Shown piece after piece: positions 8,982 through 23,114 of a stretch of 23,592 nucleotides of DNA. The translations under genes and the position numbers were made by a program. Position 1 is the first letter of the stretch. Each line of letters starts with the position of its first letter. Source of the stretch: a virus. Under the pieces are notes generated by a model. That model had not been told where the DNA came from. It saw only the letters and a list, made by a program, of their open reading frames with translations, and made no database searches. Where the stretch lies: positions 1-23,592 of IMG/VR virus record IMGVR_UViG_3300021088_000327. The stretch is one strand, 5' to 3'.

Positions 8982-10190
8982 TCAGGCACTGAGATAGAAT
9001 AGCTCGTTAGCGAACTTGAAATTTACAGCCGCCTTCATACGCGCCTTCATACGTACTACGTTGTCGTTGGTGTAGGGCTTCATATAAACTGTTGAAAGCT
9101 CAGAGGCGTCTCCCAACAGATCGACCCCTAAAAACAAGTTGGACGAACGTGCGCCTAAAATGGTGTTGGCTTGCCAGTGATTCATGATCTGGAGCGGAAT
9201 ACCAAGGTAATCCATCTTTTTCATATCGGTAAAGGCATTAATAACGTTGAGCGCCTTGTTTGCCTGTGCCTGTGCGAAAGCGTATCCGACATGCAACGGC
9301 ACCTGCAGGTTGAAATCGTCCTGGATGCGGTCGGCAGGATCGAGCTGGGCGTATACGCTTCCCAGTACCGACAACACGTTGCTTACGTTGATATAGCTTA
9401 TGGTTGCTGCGGTGGAAGTTCCTGAAAATGTAGCTGCCTTGCGGCTGTTTACTTCATTGTAGTTACGTACCAGTTTAAACGTGGTTGCGCTTGCTATCTG
9501 GATAAAATAGGACTGTCCCTGGACAGAAATACCCGGTGTTCCGTTAGTAATGTCTTTACTTGAGCCTGTTACAGCGGTAATAGTTACAACATCGCCGTCT
9601 GCTAATGTTGACGTATCGGATACAGTTACAATTCCCGATGCATCGATCGCTGTTGCGATCATGGAAGTTGCCGGCTTTCCCAGGCCAACTTTATAAACGC
9701 CGGAAGCCGAAGCAATAGTTGGCAATAATCCGGTGAACGGAGCAGTAAAAGTAGCCTCCTTAGTTGACCCCTTGCCGAGCCAGTACAAACGCTCGTTTGC
9801 AATTTGTATTTTGGTTAGATAGCGCTGCACCATAAAATCAGACAGGTCGACTACCCCTTCGTAGTCCACGAATGCACCGGGTTTAAGACTTTGCGCCTCC
9901 CAGGATTGAATGAGTTTATCCCATTGTTCCTGCTTCATAAATTCGTATACAACAGGGTCCAGATAGCTTTCATTCTGATGAGCAGTTGTTCCCTGGTCGT
10001 TGAATATACCGGAAGGGTCCTGCAATACGACATCGTCATCAACATCGAGTATTACCTTGCGCGATTTTACGTCGTTAATAACGGTGAGCAGTCCGCGCTT
10101 TACGGAATCAGCTTCCAGCAGCGTACTTGCCATAAACCCGGCCAGCGCTTCGCCGGCATAGGTGTTGTTTGTAAATGTAAATTGAGCCAT
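8982..10190 (-). CDS. Major capsid protein, HK97-fold type, with inserted domain
   Basis: A 402-residue protein expected to form the icosahedral shell. The N-terminus (MAQFTFTNNTYAGEALAGFM) and the sequence QDPSGIFNDQGTTAHQNESY are like capsid proteins in other Bacteroidota phages. The conserved core continues with VDLSDFMVQRYLTKIQIANER and, near the end, DYLGIPLQIMNHWQANTILG and VRMKARMKAAVNFKFANELF. Residues about 183-268 differ from the core: ASGIVTVSDTSTLADGDVVT, later QGQSYFIQIASATTFKLVRN. This is a small beta domain of the kind seen in phage tail and surface proteins (start 'V-T-V...L-A-D-G-D-x-V-T', end 'A-T-T-F-K-L'). It was probably inserted into the axial or peripheral domain. The ClpP-type protease and scaffold are encoded just upstream. 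Confidence 0.85.
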   Translation of the reverse strand: MAQFTFTNNTYAGEALAGFMASTLLEADSVKRGLLTVINDVKSRKVILDVDDDVVLQDPSGIFNDQGTTAHQNESYLDPVVYEFMKQEQWDKLIQSWEAQSLKPGAFVDYEGVVDLSDFMVQRYLTKIQIANERLYWLGKGSTKEATFTAPFTGLLPTIASASGVYKVGLGKPATSMIATAIDASGIVTVSDTSTLADGDVVTITAVTGSSKDITNGTPGISVQGQSYFIQIASATTFKLVRNYNEVNSRKAATFSGTSTAATISYINVSNVLSVLGSVYAQLDPADRIQDDFNLQVPLHVGYAFAQAQANKALNVINAFTDMKKMDYLGIPLQIMNHWQANTILGARSSNLFLGVDLLGDASELSTVYMKPYTNDNVVRMKARMKAAVNFKFANELFYLSA

Positions 10191-12093: not shown

Positions 12094-14319
12094 TTAAAGA
12101 TTTACCCTGTTAATGGTTTGCGCCAGAATATTCTGCTGGTTGTTTACGTCTTTGACATCGACATACACCGGCGGAAAATTATTGATCATTTGGTATGCGA
12201 TCGTATTGGCCAGATTCTTTTGATCAGTTACCGGCTGGTTATAATAGCGATTGGCATCGCCTCCGTCCGTAAATATACCGCCAACGGCATACCCGCGGCC
12301 GGGATTTGCGATCGAAAAATCACGGCCGCCAAAACCCACGTTTATGGCACTTACCAGATTTCGCGCCCAGGGTACCTGCATAGCTTCGGATACTACAATA
12401 CCTTCGCCAGACCGTAGGAAAGCGGTGGTGTTATCAGTTTTACTGTAGCCCGACAGCACGCCGCCACGGCCATCAGAGGTATAATGAAAGCCACCTGCAG
12501 CATAAGCCGGTGGCTTTTGTGCCGCAATTTTGGCTACCTGAGCAGTTGTTTCGGCTATTACAATACCAATCTCCAACGGAGCAAACACCCCTGTTTGAGC
12601 GGTAGCTTTGGTAACGGCGAGCGCACCATTAATAATTGCTTGTGCGATTGATACTTCCTGCTCTTCCTTAAAAGCCTTAACCTTTACCTGATTTTCCCGT
12701 TGTTTGTACTTTTGTTCGATAGCCAGTTTTTGAGCGGATGTTAGGCTGCTGTTATTGAGCTCGTTTGCTTTATCTTTTTCAAGAGCAGCAATCTTGGCTT
12801 CGCTTTGCTGTTTAATACTATCTTTCAATGTATTTATTGCATTCGCAGCTATTTTGCCGGCGGATTTCTTCGCATAATCTTCTACCTCCCGGAGTGCAGT
12901 CTTTTTTATGCCGACAGTTTCTTCTGCGGTCTTTTTTACTGTAGCCAGTTCTTTTGCGTCTGCGGTATCGCTAACATTGTTATCCCCAGCATCAGTTACC
13001 GGCGATCCAGCAACCCCATTATCAGTAGTATTAACAACATCTGCATCGGCCTTTACAGCCGAAGCCGGAGAAGCGGATACTTGAACCTTTCGCCTATTGT
13101 TACTTCTAATTCTTTTGTTCGATGCGTTAACTTTCTTTTCATGGTTCTCTACAATTTTTCCGGCGCTATTATATCCATTTTCGTATGCCCCTACCATTTC
13201 TTTAGCCGTATCCTTTGCCGCCTTTTTTACCGCGTTAAAAGCGTGGGTTATTTTATCGGTAGCGTTAGTTACCCCTGTAAATGCCTGAATAGTCCCATTT
13301 GCGATTTTTTTAAAATCAAGATGAATAATCCCATCCAGTATTACACCAAATGCCCTGAACCTATTGATTAAATTCTCCTGAATGGTTCGACCTAACGATT
13401 TTAAGGTATCGATTGGATGCGAAAAAGCGTTGATAATTGTTTCGCTAAAAGCTTTTACAAGAGTTTTAACCTTATTTACGACGACACCAATTGCAGATAT
13501 TGCACCCGTTAACACCTTGGTACCGGTAGAAGATTTAATAAACCAGTCAAATAGTAACTGCAGAACCTCCAACAGAAAGTCAAACCCATCAGCTTTTATA
13601 GCCTCACCCACTCCGTTAAACCCGGCTTTAACCAAAGCCAATCCCGTTTTCATGACGTTAAAACCTTTAGCGGCATCTTCCAGGCTGGGGCCAAATTCAC
13701 CAGAAACACCCTTTATCTCATCGAACGACGCTTTGAGATGATCCATAACGGCCTTATGGCCTTCAAATGCTGTTTTATTATTGGCTACACTGGTTGCCTG
13801 CTCGCTTAGTGCACCCGAAGCTGCAGTTATACTGTTGTGAAATTGCGTTGCTTCAGCAAAACCTTTAGACAAGCTGTCTGAAAAAGTATCGATTGCGCTT
13901 TTGGCTGCGTCGACCTTCCCTTTTTGCTGCGTTGCGGAATTATTTAGTGAATTTAACCCGCCAGTCAACTCTTTTATCTTAACAGAATTTTCAGCAGCAG
14001 CTTTCGTGGTTTTTTGATGTTGCGCGGCCAAAGCCGACAGGGAGTTTTCAGCCATCTTACCGGATGTACTTAACGCGGTTAGTGATGAAACACCAGAAGC
14101 CAATTGCGTACTGATGTCCTGAAGTGTCTTTTGAAAACCGATGATAGTCGACGCAATGCTATTAAATGCCGCTGAGTTTTGCTGTCCGGCAGCAGTTAGC
14201 TGCTGCTGTTTAGCTAAAAGACTGTCTATCGTTTTATTTAAATTAGAAATGTTTTGGCTTAGGTTTTCCGTATCGAGATCTACGCCGATGGTAATTTTTT
14301 TACTGATGTCGTCTGCCAT
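12094..14319 (-). CDS. Tail tape measure protein
   Basis: A 741-residue protein that sets tail length and passes into the host envelope at infection. The N-terminal 150 residues are a long coiled coil rich in Ser, Ala, Gln and Asn (ENLSQNISNLNKTIDSLLAK). Residues about 245-285 are hydrophobic (FDFLLEVLQLLFDWF, then LTGAISAIGVVV). A second Lys/Ala/Glu-rich coiled region spans roughly 450-560. The C-terminus has the family ending AYAAGGFHYTSDGRGGVLSG and FLRSGEGIVVSEAM, then INNFPPVYVDVKDVNNQQNI. If tail length scales at about 0.15 nm per residue, as known for other siphophages, the tail would be about 110 nm. It lies downstream of a strong terminator and a palindrome. Confidence 0.92.
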   Translation of the reverse strand: MADDISKKITIGVDLDTENLSQNISNLNKTIDSLLAKQQQLTAAGQQNSAAFNSIASTIIGFQKTLQDISTQLASGVSSLTALSTSGKMAENSLSALAAQHQKTTKAAAENSVKIKELTGGLNSLNNSATQQKGKVDAAKSAIDTFSDSLSKGFAEATQFHNSITAASGALSEQATSVANNKTAFEGHKAVMDHLKASFDEIKGVSGEFGPSLEDAAKGFNVMKTGLALVKAGFNGVGEAIKADGFDFLLEVLQLLFDWFIKSSTGTKVLTGAISAIGVVVNKVKTLVKAFSETIINAFSHPIDTLKSLGRTIQENLINRFRAFGVILDGIIHLDFKKIANGTIQAFTGVTNATDKITHAFNAVKKAAKDTAKEMVGAYENGYNSAGKIVENHEKKVNASNKRIRSNNRRKVQVSASPASAVKADADVVNTTDNGVAGSPVTDAGDNNVSDTADAKELATVKKTAEETVGIKKTALREVEDYAKKSAGKIAANAINTLKDSIKQQSEAKIAALEKDKANELNNSSLTSAQKLAIEQKYKQRENQVKVKAFKEEQEVSIAQAIINGALAVTKATAQTGVFAPLEIGIVIAETTAQVAKIAAQKPPAYAAGGFHYTSDGRGGVLSGYSKTDNTTAFLRSGEGIVVSEAMQVPWARNLVSAINVGFGGRDFSIANPGRGYAVGGIFTDGGDANRYYNQPVTDQKNLANTIAYQMINNFPPVYVDVKDVNNQQNILAQTINRVNL

Positions 14320-14393: not shown

Positions 14394-14975
14394 TTAATAA
14401 TCAGATTTTTCCTTTGCTTTTTGCTTTGCTTCGGCCTCGCTAAAAAGCTTGTCGTTTTGGTAAATAAGATCAACCGTTAAATCCTCGGTGATTTCGGCAA
14501 GAATAGAGTTGTCGTTCGATTCCCAATATGTTTTATATTCGGCCATCGCGCTTCTTATCGCAACAATTTTATTCATTTCACTGTCCTTGTCTGAATAAGG
14601 AGATTTAAAAGTTACCTGTGAATCACCTTTACCATAATTGTCATTTATATCTTTAACCAGTTCGTTGTAATACTCTATCGATCTGGCATCCTGCCCTGGT
14701 AAAAAGAGAAAATCGGCTTCATAAGCTTTATCGTTTACAAACTTCACAATAAACGATGCGGCTTCCCTATGCCCCAGTTTAACGTTTCTAAAAATAACAG
14801 ACTCTTTCGTGGACTTTGCTTTATCTATAACCCCGCCTTTTGCTATTACAGCAGCGTTCACTGCTGCCATACCGGTGCCAAATTTAATACCCAAAAAGCC
14901 TTCGATGGGTTTTGTTGTTTGCGACATCCCTAAAAACGGGATTAGCAATAATGTGATAAGTAAGGTTTTTTTCAT
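14394..14975 (-). CDS. Secreted cargo (moron) protein of unknown function
   Basis: A 193-residue protein with a clear type I signal peptide (MKKTLLITLLLIPFLGMSQT, cleavage near Met-Ser-Gln). The mature part starts with GFLGIKFGTGMAAVNAAVIAKGG, a pattern I associate with exported Bacteroidota proteins of unknown role, followed by an alpha/beta region and a Lys/Glu-rich C-terminus (AEAKQKAKEKSDY). Virion proteins do not carry such signal peptides. The gene lies between a tail gene and the tape measure and has its own AT-rich upstream region and a strong terminator, so it is probably an independently expressed lysogenic-conversion gene. Periplasmic location is expected. Function is unknown. Confidence 0.83.
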   Translation of the reverse strand: MKKTLLITLLLIPFLGMSQTTKPIEGFLGIKFGTGMAAVNAAVIAKGGVIDKAKSTKESVIFRNVKLGHREAASFIVKFVNDKAYEADFLFLPGQDARSIEYYNELVKDINDNYGKGDSQVTFKSPYSDKDSEMNKIVAIRSAMAEYKTYWESNDNSILAEITEDLTVDLIYQNDKLFSEAEAKQKAKEKSDY

Positions 14976-19896: not shown

Positions 19897-20349
19897 TCAG
19901 TTAAATACTTCAAAATACATGGTTGCCAGGGTGATCGTTAGGTTTACACCAGTTGTATTTACGTCGAACTTGTTATAGACAGGCAGGCATTTTGCACGGT
20001 CGCCGGCCTTGATCCTGAAATACCGACCCTCGCCTTCACGATACCGGGAAGCTTTTACGATAAATTCGTTAGCGAGCGACAGTGCCTGGTTCACATATAA
20101 TTCATTGTCGGAAGTATACTGATCAAAACCTGTCTTATACAGAAATTCGAGATACACGGAAAAGGTATTATCAACAGAGCCGTTTATTTGTGGCGACACG
20201 TCAATTGGCTGCAAAGGGTACATGAACACACAGGGGAATGCATTGATATCATCGGCTAATTGATTGAGTTCATTTACCGTGCCACATACAAAAGTTGGAG
20301 TATTGCTAAGGGTTTGCACGATAGCTTCGATTTGGTTACGTATAGGCAT
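19897..20349 (-). CDS. Tail terminator-like protein
   Basis: A 150-residue alpha/beta protein. The sequence begins MPIRNQIEAIVQTLSNTPTF with a long helix, then a beta region around FPCVFMYPLQPIDVSPQING and VYLEFLYKTGFDQY. Another helix follows (NQALSLANEFIVKASRYREG), and the C-terminal strand is TGVNLTITLATMYFEVF. The helix-sheet-helix-sheet order and length fit tail-terminator proteins (lambda gpU-like), which cap the tail tube. It is the gene between the chaperone-like gene and the gp10-like gene, again consistent with tail completion. No diagnostic residue is known to me, so confidence is moderate. Confidence 0.65.
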   Translation of the reverse strand: MPIRNQIEAIVQTLSNTPTFVCGTVNELNQLADDINAFPCVFMYPLQPIDVSPQINGSVDNTFSVYLEFLYKTGFDQYTSDNELYVNQALSLANEFIVKASRYREGEGRYFRIKAGDRAKCLPVYNKFDVNTTGVNLTITLATMYFEVFN

Positions 20350-20407: not shown

Positions 20408-20665
20408 TTATTGCGCGTTAATAAGTTCACTATATCGCCGCTGGTAGTCTGCTTCGGCTTTACTGAGCAGCAGCTTGGTTAATACACGCTCATATGGCAT
20501 ATTTAATATTTCAGTCCATTTGGTGAGGTCGCCTCCGGCAAGTGAGTTGACGGTGTTTATATATTTAAACTTTTCGAACGACTGGATCCCAGCCTTCTTT
20601 TCCAACGCTGTAGGAAGCGACGAAAGAAGCTTGTCTTCGGTTTCGATAAGCCGGGATAACAGGTA
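20408..20665 (-). CDS. -1 frame extension of the chaperone-like gene
   Basis: An open frame with no ATG of its own until a TTG at 20605. It enters from the chaperone-like gene at the T7 run. After a -1 shift there, translation would continue YLLSRLIETEDKLLSSLPTA, then FEKFKYINTVNSLAGGDLTK and NMPYERVLTKLLLSKAEADY, ending at the stop at 20408. This part is helical and ends like the T-type domains of tail chaperones (W-x-x-I-L-x-M-P-Y). The fusion would be 280 residues, of which 85 are from this frame. It may also be translated alone from TTG (65 residues), but the leader is not convincing. Confidence 0.7.
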   Translation of the reverse strand, partial: YLLSRLIETEDKLLSSLPTALEKKAGIQSFEKFKYINTVNSLAGGDLTKWTEILNMPYERVLTKLLLSKAEADYQRRYSELINAQ

Positions 20666-21249
20666 AAAAAATGCTTCGAAACGGGCAGCGCCTCCGCCAC
20701 TCCTAGCTTTTTTACTTCGTTACAAAACTCTTCCACCTCGTATTCATTATATATTTTACCAGTGACCCTACAGAAAAAATAATGGGCCAATACCTGGCAG
20801 CAAGCTTTCAACGAAGGATTAAAATGCTCCTGCCAATCATCGGGGCTATACTTTTTTATGTGCTCGTTTATTTCGTCGGAAATAATATCGCGGGCAGCCA
20901 TAAAAGCGCCCGCAGGCTCTATAGACAGGTTGCGCATTACATTCACGCATACGCGGGTATTCCCGGAGCAGAAGTTGATTTTTTCCGGGATCTTTTCTGA
21001 GTCATACATGTATTTGATTTGGTTGGATAGCGACAGGATGGCGTCTCCGAATACCCGCAAATCATCCAAACTACAAACGTTGTTTAGCTGGTTAATAGGG
21101 ATACCTGACAATATGCTGATTGCTTCAAGATCGTTGAGATTCTCTTTTTCCTGCAATTCAATCATTTGCCCCAGGGTAACTTCGTTTAAGCTTGAGGGGA
21201 TTTTAATTTTAAGCTTTCCGCTAATCGTTTTCAGCGTTTTTTCTATCAT
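20557..21249 (-). CDS. Tail assembly chaperone-like protein (zero frame)
   Basis: A 230-residue protein, starting six bases after the terminase large-subunit stop. The first 100 residues (MIEKTLKTISGKLKIKIPSS, then QMIELQEKENLNDLEAISIL SG) are helical and match a Bacteroidota phage family of 'K-I-P-x-x-x-x-E-V-T-L-G-Q' proteins. The last 35 residues after His193-Phe-Phe are very different: YPGLSKPKTSFFRRFLQRWK and then RRLGSSRSKSLNI, basic and low in hydrophobic helix signal. At His193 the codons CAT TTT TTT form a T7 slippery run. A -1 shift would yield a helical continuation instead. Tail chaperones (lambda gpG/gpGT) are known to be made in two lengths by this mechanism. Function is inferred from architecture and position next to the tail-terminator-like gene. 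Confidence 0.78.
   Translation of the reverse strand: MIEKTLKTISGKLKIKIPSSLNEVTLGQMIELQEKENLNDLEAISILSGIPINQLNNVCSLDDLRVFGDAILSLSNQIKYMYDSEKIPEKINFCSGNTRVCVNVMRNLSIEPAGAFMAARDIISDEINEHIKKYSPDDWQEHFNPSLKACCQVLAHYFFCRVTGKIYNEYEVEEFCNEVKKLGVAEALPVSKHFFTCYPGLSKPKTSFFRRFLQRWKRRLGSSRSKSLNI
20621..20645 (-). other. Hairpin downstream of the slippery run
   Basis: On the minus strand, CGAAA-CC-GAAG-ACAAG-CTTC-TTTCG can fold into a 9-bp hairpin with a two-base bulge. Its 5' end lies 19 bases after the T7 run, farther than the usual 5-9 bases for a frameshift-stimulating element, so support is weak. Confidence 0.35.
20665..20671 (-). other. T7 slippery heptamer (probable -1 frameshift site)
   Basis: TTTTTTT in the zero frame CAT-TTT-TTT-ACC, i.e. 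the X-XXY-YYZ form with X, Y and Z all T. The -1 frame is open from here to 20408 and closed neither side of the overlap by a stop, giving a 280-residue product. A sequencing or biological indel in the homopolymer would give the same picture. Confidence 0.7.
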
Positions 21250-21255
21250 AAAATT

Positions 21256-22476
21256 TTATTTTAGTAAATGCGTGGCTGCAAAATCGTGAGCAGGCTCAAT
21301 GAAAGGCAGTTTGCTTTTAAGCCTGGCTGACTGCGTTATTTTTAACTTATTTAAGGCGACGTATCTTAACGGATCAATCAGGTGGTTCCATGCATCAACC
21401 GGTTGGTTAAGCGGTTTTCCGGAGCGATCAATTTTCCATTTATAGCGGCTTAATTCATTGCGCAGGTTTACACTTTGACGCGTTATGTTTAACTGGTAAC
21501 GTTTTAATATATCTATCGAACTCTTAACGCTGTCGGCACCTTTTTTTGCCCCGGTAATATTCCATCCCAACCTCCTCAGCTCTTCAATTGATTTTGGCTC
21601 GGCGCTGTCGGCGATGATCTCGGTGTTTTTATTCATTCCTGCATTCAGCAGTCTGGCCGAGATATCGGTATTTGTTAACCCGGTTTCATAAAATGCTTCA
21701 TCGATCCATAATTCCCCGTTTTGACGGTAAACCAGAAGGCAACCCGTTTCATCATTTGTGAAACCAAAATCTAACCCCGCGGCTATTAGCCTTGCTTCGT
21801 CCGGTATTTTTTCGCAAATGTGCCAGTTGTTTAATATTAAGCCCGTTATTTTACCGGTAAGCCCACGGGCATAAACCCGCCAAAGCTCGATATCCGAATC
21901 TTTCAGCGATTCTAATTTATCTCGCACATGTACCTCCAAAAAAGGATTGTGCCGGTGATCCGAGATAATGAGTTGCACACCTGGTTTTCCAATTAGATTA
22001 TCGTGTACCCAGAAAGCGCTATTCGGATTAAAATCTATAAACACTTGCTTTTTTGTCCGCAATGACAGCTCCGAGTAAATTTCCCAGCCAATTCCATTCG
22101 CTTCATTTACGAATAAGTAATCGCGCTTCCCGGATTTAGCGTCCTGATTATCCCCGTAGCTTTTGTACTCAATTATGCTGCCGTTATAAAACTCAAATAC
22201 CCTGTCAGTTTTGTTATAGCTTTTTACAAGGGCCTGTAATATTTCGGACGAGTTATAAATATTTAACGCATCACGCAGCACGCCTGCTTTAAGATTAGGG
22301 ATATCCTGCCCTACGACTGTTATCACCTGTTTTTCGGCCTCGCAGGCACGGCAAAATAGAACTTGCTGAATTGAAAATGTTTTACCAGAATGTGAGCCGC
22401 CCTGATTAATGACAGTATGGGCTTTGACATAGTAATTTTGTTTAAATAGTACTGTTGCCTTGTGGTTATTAAACAT
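21256..22476 (-). CDS. terL: Terminase large subunit
   Basis: A 406-residue DNA-packaging motor ATPase-nuclease. The ATPase domain has Walker A GGSHSGKT (residues 26-33) and Walker B-type YLFVNEAN (120-127) with Glu125 as likely catalytic base, followed by the DFNP coupling motif (149-152). The C-terminal RNase H-like nuclease has AAGLDFGFTNDE (Asp236), EIIADSAEPKSIEEL (Asp290) and PVDAWNHLIDPLRY (Asp361, Asp368) as metal-binding acids. Length is typical for pBSX-like terminases. It cuts concatemeric DNA and pumps it through the portal. The small subunit is encoded upstream but separated by an opposing lipoprotein gene. The start ATG is preceded by an A/T-rich leader. Confidence 0.96.
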   Translation of the reverse strand: MFNNHKATVLFKQNYYVKAHTVINQGGSHSGKTFSIQQVLFCRACEAEKQVITVVGQDIPNLKAGVLRDALNIYNSSEILQALVKSYNKTDRVFEFYNGSIIEYKSYGDNQDAKSGKRDYLFVNEANGIGWEIYSELSLRTKKQVFIDFNPNSAFWVHDNLIGKPGVQLIISDHRHNPFLEVHVRDKLESLKDSDIELWRVYARGLTGKITGLILNNWHICEKIPDEARLIAAGLDFGFTNDETGCLLVYRQNGELWIDEAFYETGLTNTDISARLLNAGMNKNTEIIADSAEPKSIEELRRLGWNITGAKKGADSVKSSIDILKRYQLNITRQSVNLRNELSRYKWKIDRSGKPLNQPVDAWNHLIDPLRYVALNKLKITQSARLKSKLPFIEPAHDFAATHLLK

Positions 22477-22592: not shown

Positions 22593-22658
22593 CCGATATT
22601 TTCAAGGGGGATCGCAGTTATTTAAAAAATGGTACCTTTAATAAGATTTAGATTAGCA

Positions 22659-23114
22659 ATGAGAAGCATGCGCACCCTGGGAACTATTCTTTTTCTTTTA
22701 ATTTGTTTGAATGGCTGTAAAAAGGACTCAACGCCGTTATCGCAAGATTCAAAAAAACTAATTGTTGGTAAATGGTTTACTTTCTCTCATTTATCAAGAT
22801 TATATTACAATGGCGTAGCAGTTGATTCCACTTTTAAACAAAATTTTACTACGAATGACTTTTCCCAATACTTTAGTGATGGAACAGGCATCCAATCAAC
22901 CAACTACCAGCCCGCGCCGAGTTTGAGCCTTTTTCATTATACCATAAACGGTTTGAATTTAAACCAATTTAATTCGTCGGATAATTCAAGCGTAGCAGAA
23001 GTAATAACAACGTTGACATCCACTGATCTGTCATTAAATTATGCTCTTATTATAGCCGACCCCGGATCGGGAAGAGTTTATACCGAAAAAAATTATGTTG
23101 TCTTTAAGAAATAG
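22659..23114 (+). CDS. Lipoprotein cargo (moron), possible lipocalin-like fold
   Basis: The only convincing plus-strand gene, between the terminase genes. Translation from 22659 gives 151 residues; an upstream ATG at 22629 would add ten residues, but the shorter form has a better signal peptide (MRSMRTLGTILFLLICLNGC). The lipobox is L-N-G-C with the lipidated Cys followed by KKDS. The mature part has LIVGKWFTFSHLSRLYYNGV, FSDGTG, FHYTINGLNLNQFNSS and VITTLTSTDLSLNY, an order common in Bacteroidota lipocalin-like lipoproteins (G-K-W start, Y-x-I-x-G-x-x-L later). Ligand and role are unknown. Its orientation opposes the late genes and it ends four bases before the terminase small-subunit stop, so it is probably expressed in the lysogen. 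Confidence 0.82.
   Translation: MRSMRTLGTILFLLICLNGCKKDSTPLSQDSKKLIVGKWFTFSHLSRLYYNGVAVDSTFKQNFTTNDFSQYFSDGTGIQSTNYQPAPSLSLFHYTINGLNLNQFNSSDNSSVAEVITTLTSTDLSLNYALIIADPGSGRVYTEKNYVVFKK

Follow-up and report, generated by a model that had tools for sequence, protein, structure and literature searches.

A conserved −1 frame switch in the gene following terL of a Mucilaginibacter prophage-like element probably gives rise to a pair of tail-assembly chaperones

In dnaX-type frameshifting, a −1 slip takes place on a homopolymeric heptamer, with a Shine-Dalgarno stimulator located about 10 nt upstream. For the tail genes of phages, the reference case is the gpG/gpGT pair of phage lambda, in which the G part binds the tape measure and the T part binds the tube protein, and tail chaperones typically come as such a short and a long form, the extension being made rarely (PMC5009743). 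In E. coli, shifting occurs less readily on U_UUU_UUU than on A_AAA_AAG (PMC5009743). The ribosomes of Bacteroidetes hide the anti-Shine-Dalgarno sequence, and mostly ignore Shine-Dalgarno sequences (PMC10783764).

The window, by which we mean the whole stretch of DNA analysed (23,592 nt), is a complete IMG/VR record (IMGVR_UViG_3300021088_000327), with terminase, portal, protease, tail and lysozyme genes. Directly after the gene for the terminase large subunit (terL), a gene with a run of seven T residues can be read in two frames. In the zero frame, the context of the run is CAT TTT TTT ACC, that is, an in-phase T_TTT_TTT, and translation would continue for another 35 residues. After a −1 slip the reading is TAC CTG TTA and so on, for 85 residues up to a TAA ending at 20408, and the fusion of the shared part with this extension has 280 residues. 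The coordinates given in a preliminary description of the locus, which also placed the gene immediately behind terL and far from the tape measure gene, are exact, as are its lengths of 230, 280 and 35 residues. The features of the gene and its neighbours are as follows.

20557–21249, minus strand: zero-frame open reading frame for the short product of 230 aa (ATG at 21249, stop at 20559–20557).
20665–21249, minus strand: shared N-terminal domain of both products, 195 aa, with two beta hairpins plus helices in the predicted fold; conserved in 63 aligned sequences.
20665–20671, minus strand: slippery heptamer T_TTT_TTT, which is in phase in all 109 unique sequences.
20408–20665, minus strand: −1 frame extension, a helical C-terminal domain of 85 aa plus stop, giving the long product of 280 aa; dN/dS well below 1.
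20560–20664, minus strand: dual-coded stretch, in which the zero-frame tail of 35 aa (20–46 aa in relatives) lies over the −1 frame.
20683–20702, minus strand: putative upstream cis signal, consensus GGGTAACGGAGGCRCTGCCC, with GGAGG at 20691–20695; strongest synonymous-site conservation of the gene.
20615–20664, minus strand: putative downstream cis signal, about 50 nt with extra synonymous constraint.
21256–22476, minus strand: terminase large subunit, directly upstream.
19897–20349, minus strand: the following gene, 150 aa, marked as a probable tail terminator by its place in the gene order (no family match; same order in Nonlabens (Persicivirga) phage P12024S).
19448–19885, minus strand: 145 aa, probable HK97-gp10-like tail completion protein by synteny (no match of its own).
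12094–14319, minus strand: tape measure protein, about 6 kb downstream (phrog_3336, 3e-7).

The tail module runs from the frameshift gene through the terminator-like and gp10-like genes and large tail proteins to the tape measure gene. The P12024S counterpart of the 145-aa gene matches phrog_5 and, weakly, HK97-gp10_like. Two other genes of the window may be mentioned here. The small and large terminase genes are separated by a lipoprotein-like gene on the opposite strand (22629–23114, plus strand), which has the appearance of cargo, and a 193-aa protein with a signal-peptide-like start (14394–14975, minus strand) is encoded just upstream of the tape measure gene, at the place expected for a chaperone.

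The fusion protein matched 22 loci in IMG/VR, and an alignment-based search detected 66 loci in IMG/VR and 57 in GTDB genomes, nearly all of the soil bacterium Mucilaginibacter. The frames of the homologs were compared by tblastn, which favours neither layout. The −1 switch at the same codon, together with an in-phase T_TTT_TTT, was present in all of the 142 homologous loci that were usable, which comprise 109 unique sequences and form 82 clusters below 88% nucleotide identity. These counts are not fully independent, as IMG/VR and GTDB records may stem from related genomes. The only irregular record (L024/L085, one contig), which was omitted from the counts, carries an extra 1-nt deletion upstream and the same slip site. 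Among the 82 representative genes, runs of T7 or longer were found at the slip site in every case, against 22 in the 68,061 nt elsewhere; judged from the sequences, the same-codon switch in relatives is far beyond chance. The run is mostly T7 in the main clade. A relative with T8 and a single continuous frame, as expected after an indel, was sought among the homologs; in the 21 unique relatives with T8 or longer the extra T had arisen by substitution after the run, and all of them still require the −1 shift. For the shared domain, the −1 domain (in the overlap and beyond) and TerL, most values of dN/dS were below 0.2, the few of 0.2–0.27 coming from pairs with very few substitutions; the −1-encoded domain is under purifying selection. 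The zero-frame tail had been called unusually long, and its 35 residues stand, but this length is typical within the gene family and seems to be a side effect of dual coding. With the same switch and heptamer at every usable locus, the early proposal of a programmed −1 frameshift at the T run is strongly supported, and we regard it as almost certain.

The best explanation as a whole, which we consider quite probable, is a ribosomal −1 slip on U_UUU_UUU giving a tail-assembly chaperone pair. Most ribosomes would keep to the zero frame and terminate after a further 35 codons, producing the short form of 230 aa, while a fraction would slip back by one base, with the tRNA-Phe in both the P and A sites, to produce the long form of 280 aa bearing the conserved helical domain of 85 aa. 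Many copies of the shared domain would bind the tape measure, and the tail tube protein would be recruited by the rare C-domain.

The chaperone role of the short and long pair, taken by analogy, is probable. As in lambda gpG/gpGT and its analogues in long-tailed phages, a −1 shift near the end of a short reading frame of a tail-module gene gives a C-terminally extended product. The lambda genes differ from the window gene in several respects: the latter has U_UUU_UUU as the slip site, a conserved upstream element and a zero-frame tail of 20–46 aa, lies beside terL rather than before the tape measure gene, and is carried by a vertically inherited chromosomal element; moreover, no sequence or fold similarity to the lambda proteins was found for the window proteins. 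When the two domains were folded separately, the N domain was predicted with a pLDDT of 90 and a pTM of 0.84, and the C domain as five helices with a pLDDT of 73. No fold match in the PDB was obtained for either the N or the C domain, nor did either domain match a named tail-chaperone family in Pfam or PHROGs; this is weak evidence, because tail chaperones diverge strongly. The likeness to gpG/gpGT claimed in the preliminary description is therefore plausible from the architecture, the helical content and the location as first gene of the tail module, but finds no counterpart in family or fold matches. At the level of sequence, a short form and a frameshift-extended long form are both encoded, while the gene lies next to terL, with the tape measure gene, directly upstream of which a chaperone gene is expected, about 6 kb away.

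The position beside terL, which the gene usually adjoins, and the missing chaperone family or fold match would also suit a packaging or head-completion factor tied to the neighbouring terminase and made by the same programmed frameshift. We consider this unlikely: in several lineages it is genes for tail-terminator-like, gp10-like and tail proteins and the tape measure that come next, no other chaperone candidate was found beside the tape measure gene, and the short and long forms with rare extension are the typical design of tail chaperones (PMC5009743).

Given a tail-chaperone pair, its two products could also be supplied by transcriptional slippage, RNA polymerase dropping or adding a U in the T run. 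The run consists of T alone and reaches T9–T10 in divergent relatives, lengths at which polymerase slippage is plausible, but the prevailing T7 of the main clade is short. Furthermore, the last letter of the codon before TTT TTT is T throughout, including sequences in which T8 or more gives a long run anyway. This His or Tyr codon was CAT or TAT in 108 of 108 unique sequences (a naive count, not corrected for phylogeny), against a share of 43–48% for CAC or TAC among the His and Tyr codons elsewhere in the gene. Since the T is needed for tandem codon slippage and not for slippage by polymerase, its constancy disfavours the transcriptional mechanism, which we regard as improbable; the slippage is likely to be ribosomal.

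Ribosomal slippage at this site may be assisted by its surroundings. Among the 82 representatives, synonymous-site conservation was the highest of the gene at codons 184–189 (GTA ACG GAG GCN CTG CCC) and 197–201, with a further block at codons 208–212, indicating putative cis signals on both sides of the slip site. The third-position information was 1.42 bits at −40 to −19 and 1.33 bits at +1 to +18, against a baseline of about 0.7. It was back at baseline by about +51, while the zero frame usually continues to +114. The constraint is therefore tied more closely to the slip site than to the zero-frame tail, although dual coding may contribute to it in the first codons. These flanking elements may stimulate slippage. 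The window copy of the upstream element GGGTAACGGAGGCRCTGCCC is a divergent version. A consensus RNA hairpin was not found upstream or downstream of the slip site by RNAalifold and pair scanning; a 5-bp upstream stem (−38 to −34 with −23 to −19, the GGAGG in the loop) has about 3–4 compensatory cells, one pair being broken in the window, and is taken as a lead only.

The GGAGG of the upstream element is positioned 19 nt before the T run. With a −1 slip, a homopolymeric heptamer and an upstream GGAGG-like motif, the gene resembles dnaX-type systems, but it differs from them in this spacing of 19 nt instead of about 10, and in belonging to Bacteroidota, whose ribosomes hide the anti-Shine-Dalgarno sequence. 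A distance of 19 nt is too long for a classic −1 stimulator, and the motif is absent from divergent homologs; such a role for GGAGG was rejected.

The same GGAGG motif, and the annotation of the −1 part of P12024S as a gene of its own, might instead suggest that the −1 domain is made alone by internal initiation, without any fusion. This is very improbable, given that the first −1 start in the window is a TTG at 20605, past the start of the conserved domain, that the −1 frame becomes conserved precisely from the T run onwards, and that Shine-Dalgarno sequences are mostly ignored by Bacteroidetes ribosomes (PMC10783764). A homopolymer sequencing error or a point mutation in one contig, the main alternative named at the outset, is refuted in spite of the error-prone nature of single-base runs, for more than 100 genomes and contigs that were sequenced separately, among them isolates, show the same switch, and an arrangement in two frames preserved across so many species is real.

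Outside this group, divergent homologs from Sphingobacteriaceae were detected with a profile of the −1 domain, and 16 of them were fetched. Except for one with a continuous frame (L214), all (15 of 16) showed the −1 switch at T8–T10, often in another residue context. A search of INPHARED with the fusion protein by tblastn gave no match; Nonlabens phage P12024S was reached via Foldseek, which ties the N domain of the window to gene 38 of this phage (4e-5). Gene 38 belongs to phrog_32199, with which the N domain has weak matches (E 0.004 and 0.003), and genes 38 and 39 are joined by −1 at T9, directly after terL. This pair is therefore like the window gene in its place after terL, in the match of the N domain and in the −1 joining at a T run, but differs in being annotated as two hypothetical proteins, in its shorter domains, in the lack of a GGAGG element and in belonging to a lytic phage. 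P12024S_39 (JQ823122; L158, 23136–23830) has the annotation of an independent gene, but apparently represents the −1 extension of P12024S_38.

Single-frame homologs, carried by Bacteroidota phages, were found at large distance only, in a gut phage (MT836763, L159), L154/L221 and L224, with possibly another in a Bacteroides phage gene at the same place (L162). They (phrog_28240 and others) share the C-terminal domain and are located in or near the terL neighbourhood, but consist of one continuous reading frame with no frameshift. The frameshift is therefore not obligatory for the family. In L157, with T9, the long form requires −1, while in its close relative L156 a T7 lies within a continuous frame, and a −1 slip would lead straight to a TGA stop, giving the short form; this pair, a single case, would represent a mirror-image layout. 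Flavobacterium phage Fpv5 was rejected as a relative, the gene after its terL being unrelated. The taxonomy line of one record (L161, PP511318) seems to be wrong, as it names Microviridae for a sequence of 35.8 kb that has genes for terminase, portal and capsid.

By a genus search, the frameshift-gene domain was detected in 101 of 150 Mucilaginibacter genomes, as a single copy in 100. In six genomes, as well as in 47 of 57 contigs, one and the same host lipoprotein gene precedes the element, most of the other contigs being too short to tell, and a YCF48-like gene is present on the right side of the element in 5 of the 6 genomes. For 29 genomes, the tree of the frameshift protein plus TerL shared 16 of 26 splits with that of RpoB (Mantel r 0.75), against a mean of 0.28 and a maximum of 3 common splits after random relabelling. 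No integrase or replication family was detected among the window proteins scanned. The element (L089–L145, L187–L204) is a vertically inherited, domesticated prophage, kept in single copy at a fixed chromosomal locus, and is decaying in places. The major-capsid candidate (window 8982–10190) was found in 77 genomes and is truncated or split in several. It is split, truncated or missing in G420, G467, G434, G404, G448 and G003; some of these genomes have retained terL and the frameshift gene. A gene for a peptidase-S24 (LexA/CI-like) regulator (u7367; L187 flanks) is located upstream of the element, at a distance of no more than 10 kb, in 31 of 57 contigs, and SOS control is possible.

Inherited vertically at a fixed locus, and with neither integrase nor replication genes found in its cluster, the element is perhaps a gene transfer agent (GTA). 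To our knowledge, GTAs are hardly known outside Alphaproteobacteria, and no earlier report of the Mucilaginibacter element was found in searches of a collection of open-access papers. As a speculation which we hold with low confidence, this would be a genus-wide, vertically inherited GTA-like element, in which tail assembly needs a U_UUU_UUU frameshift tuned by the GGAGG element, possibly read only by bS21-free ribosomes with an exposed anti-Shine-Dalgarno sequence.

Through these findings Bacteroidota, a phylum with ribosomes that hide the anti-Shine-Dalgarno sequence, gain a large clade of frameshifted phage genes that had lacked annotation, and within this clade a conserved upstream signal that can be tested by reporters. 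Because the family holds both single-frame and frameshifted versions, it offers a natural test of the purpose of the frameshift. The gene also exposes a phage-like element fixed in Mucilaginibacter genomes, in which selection has kept the frameshift gene working.
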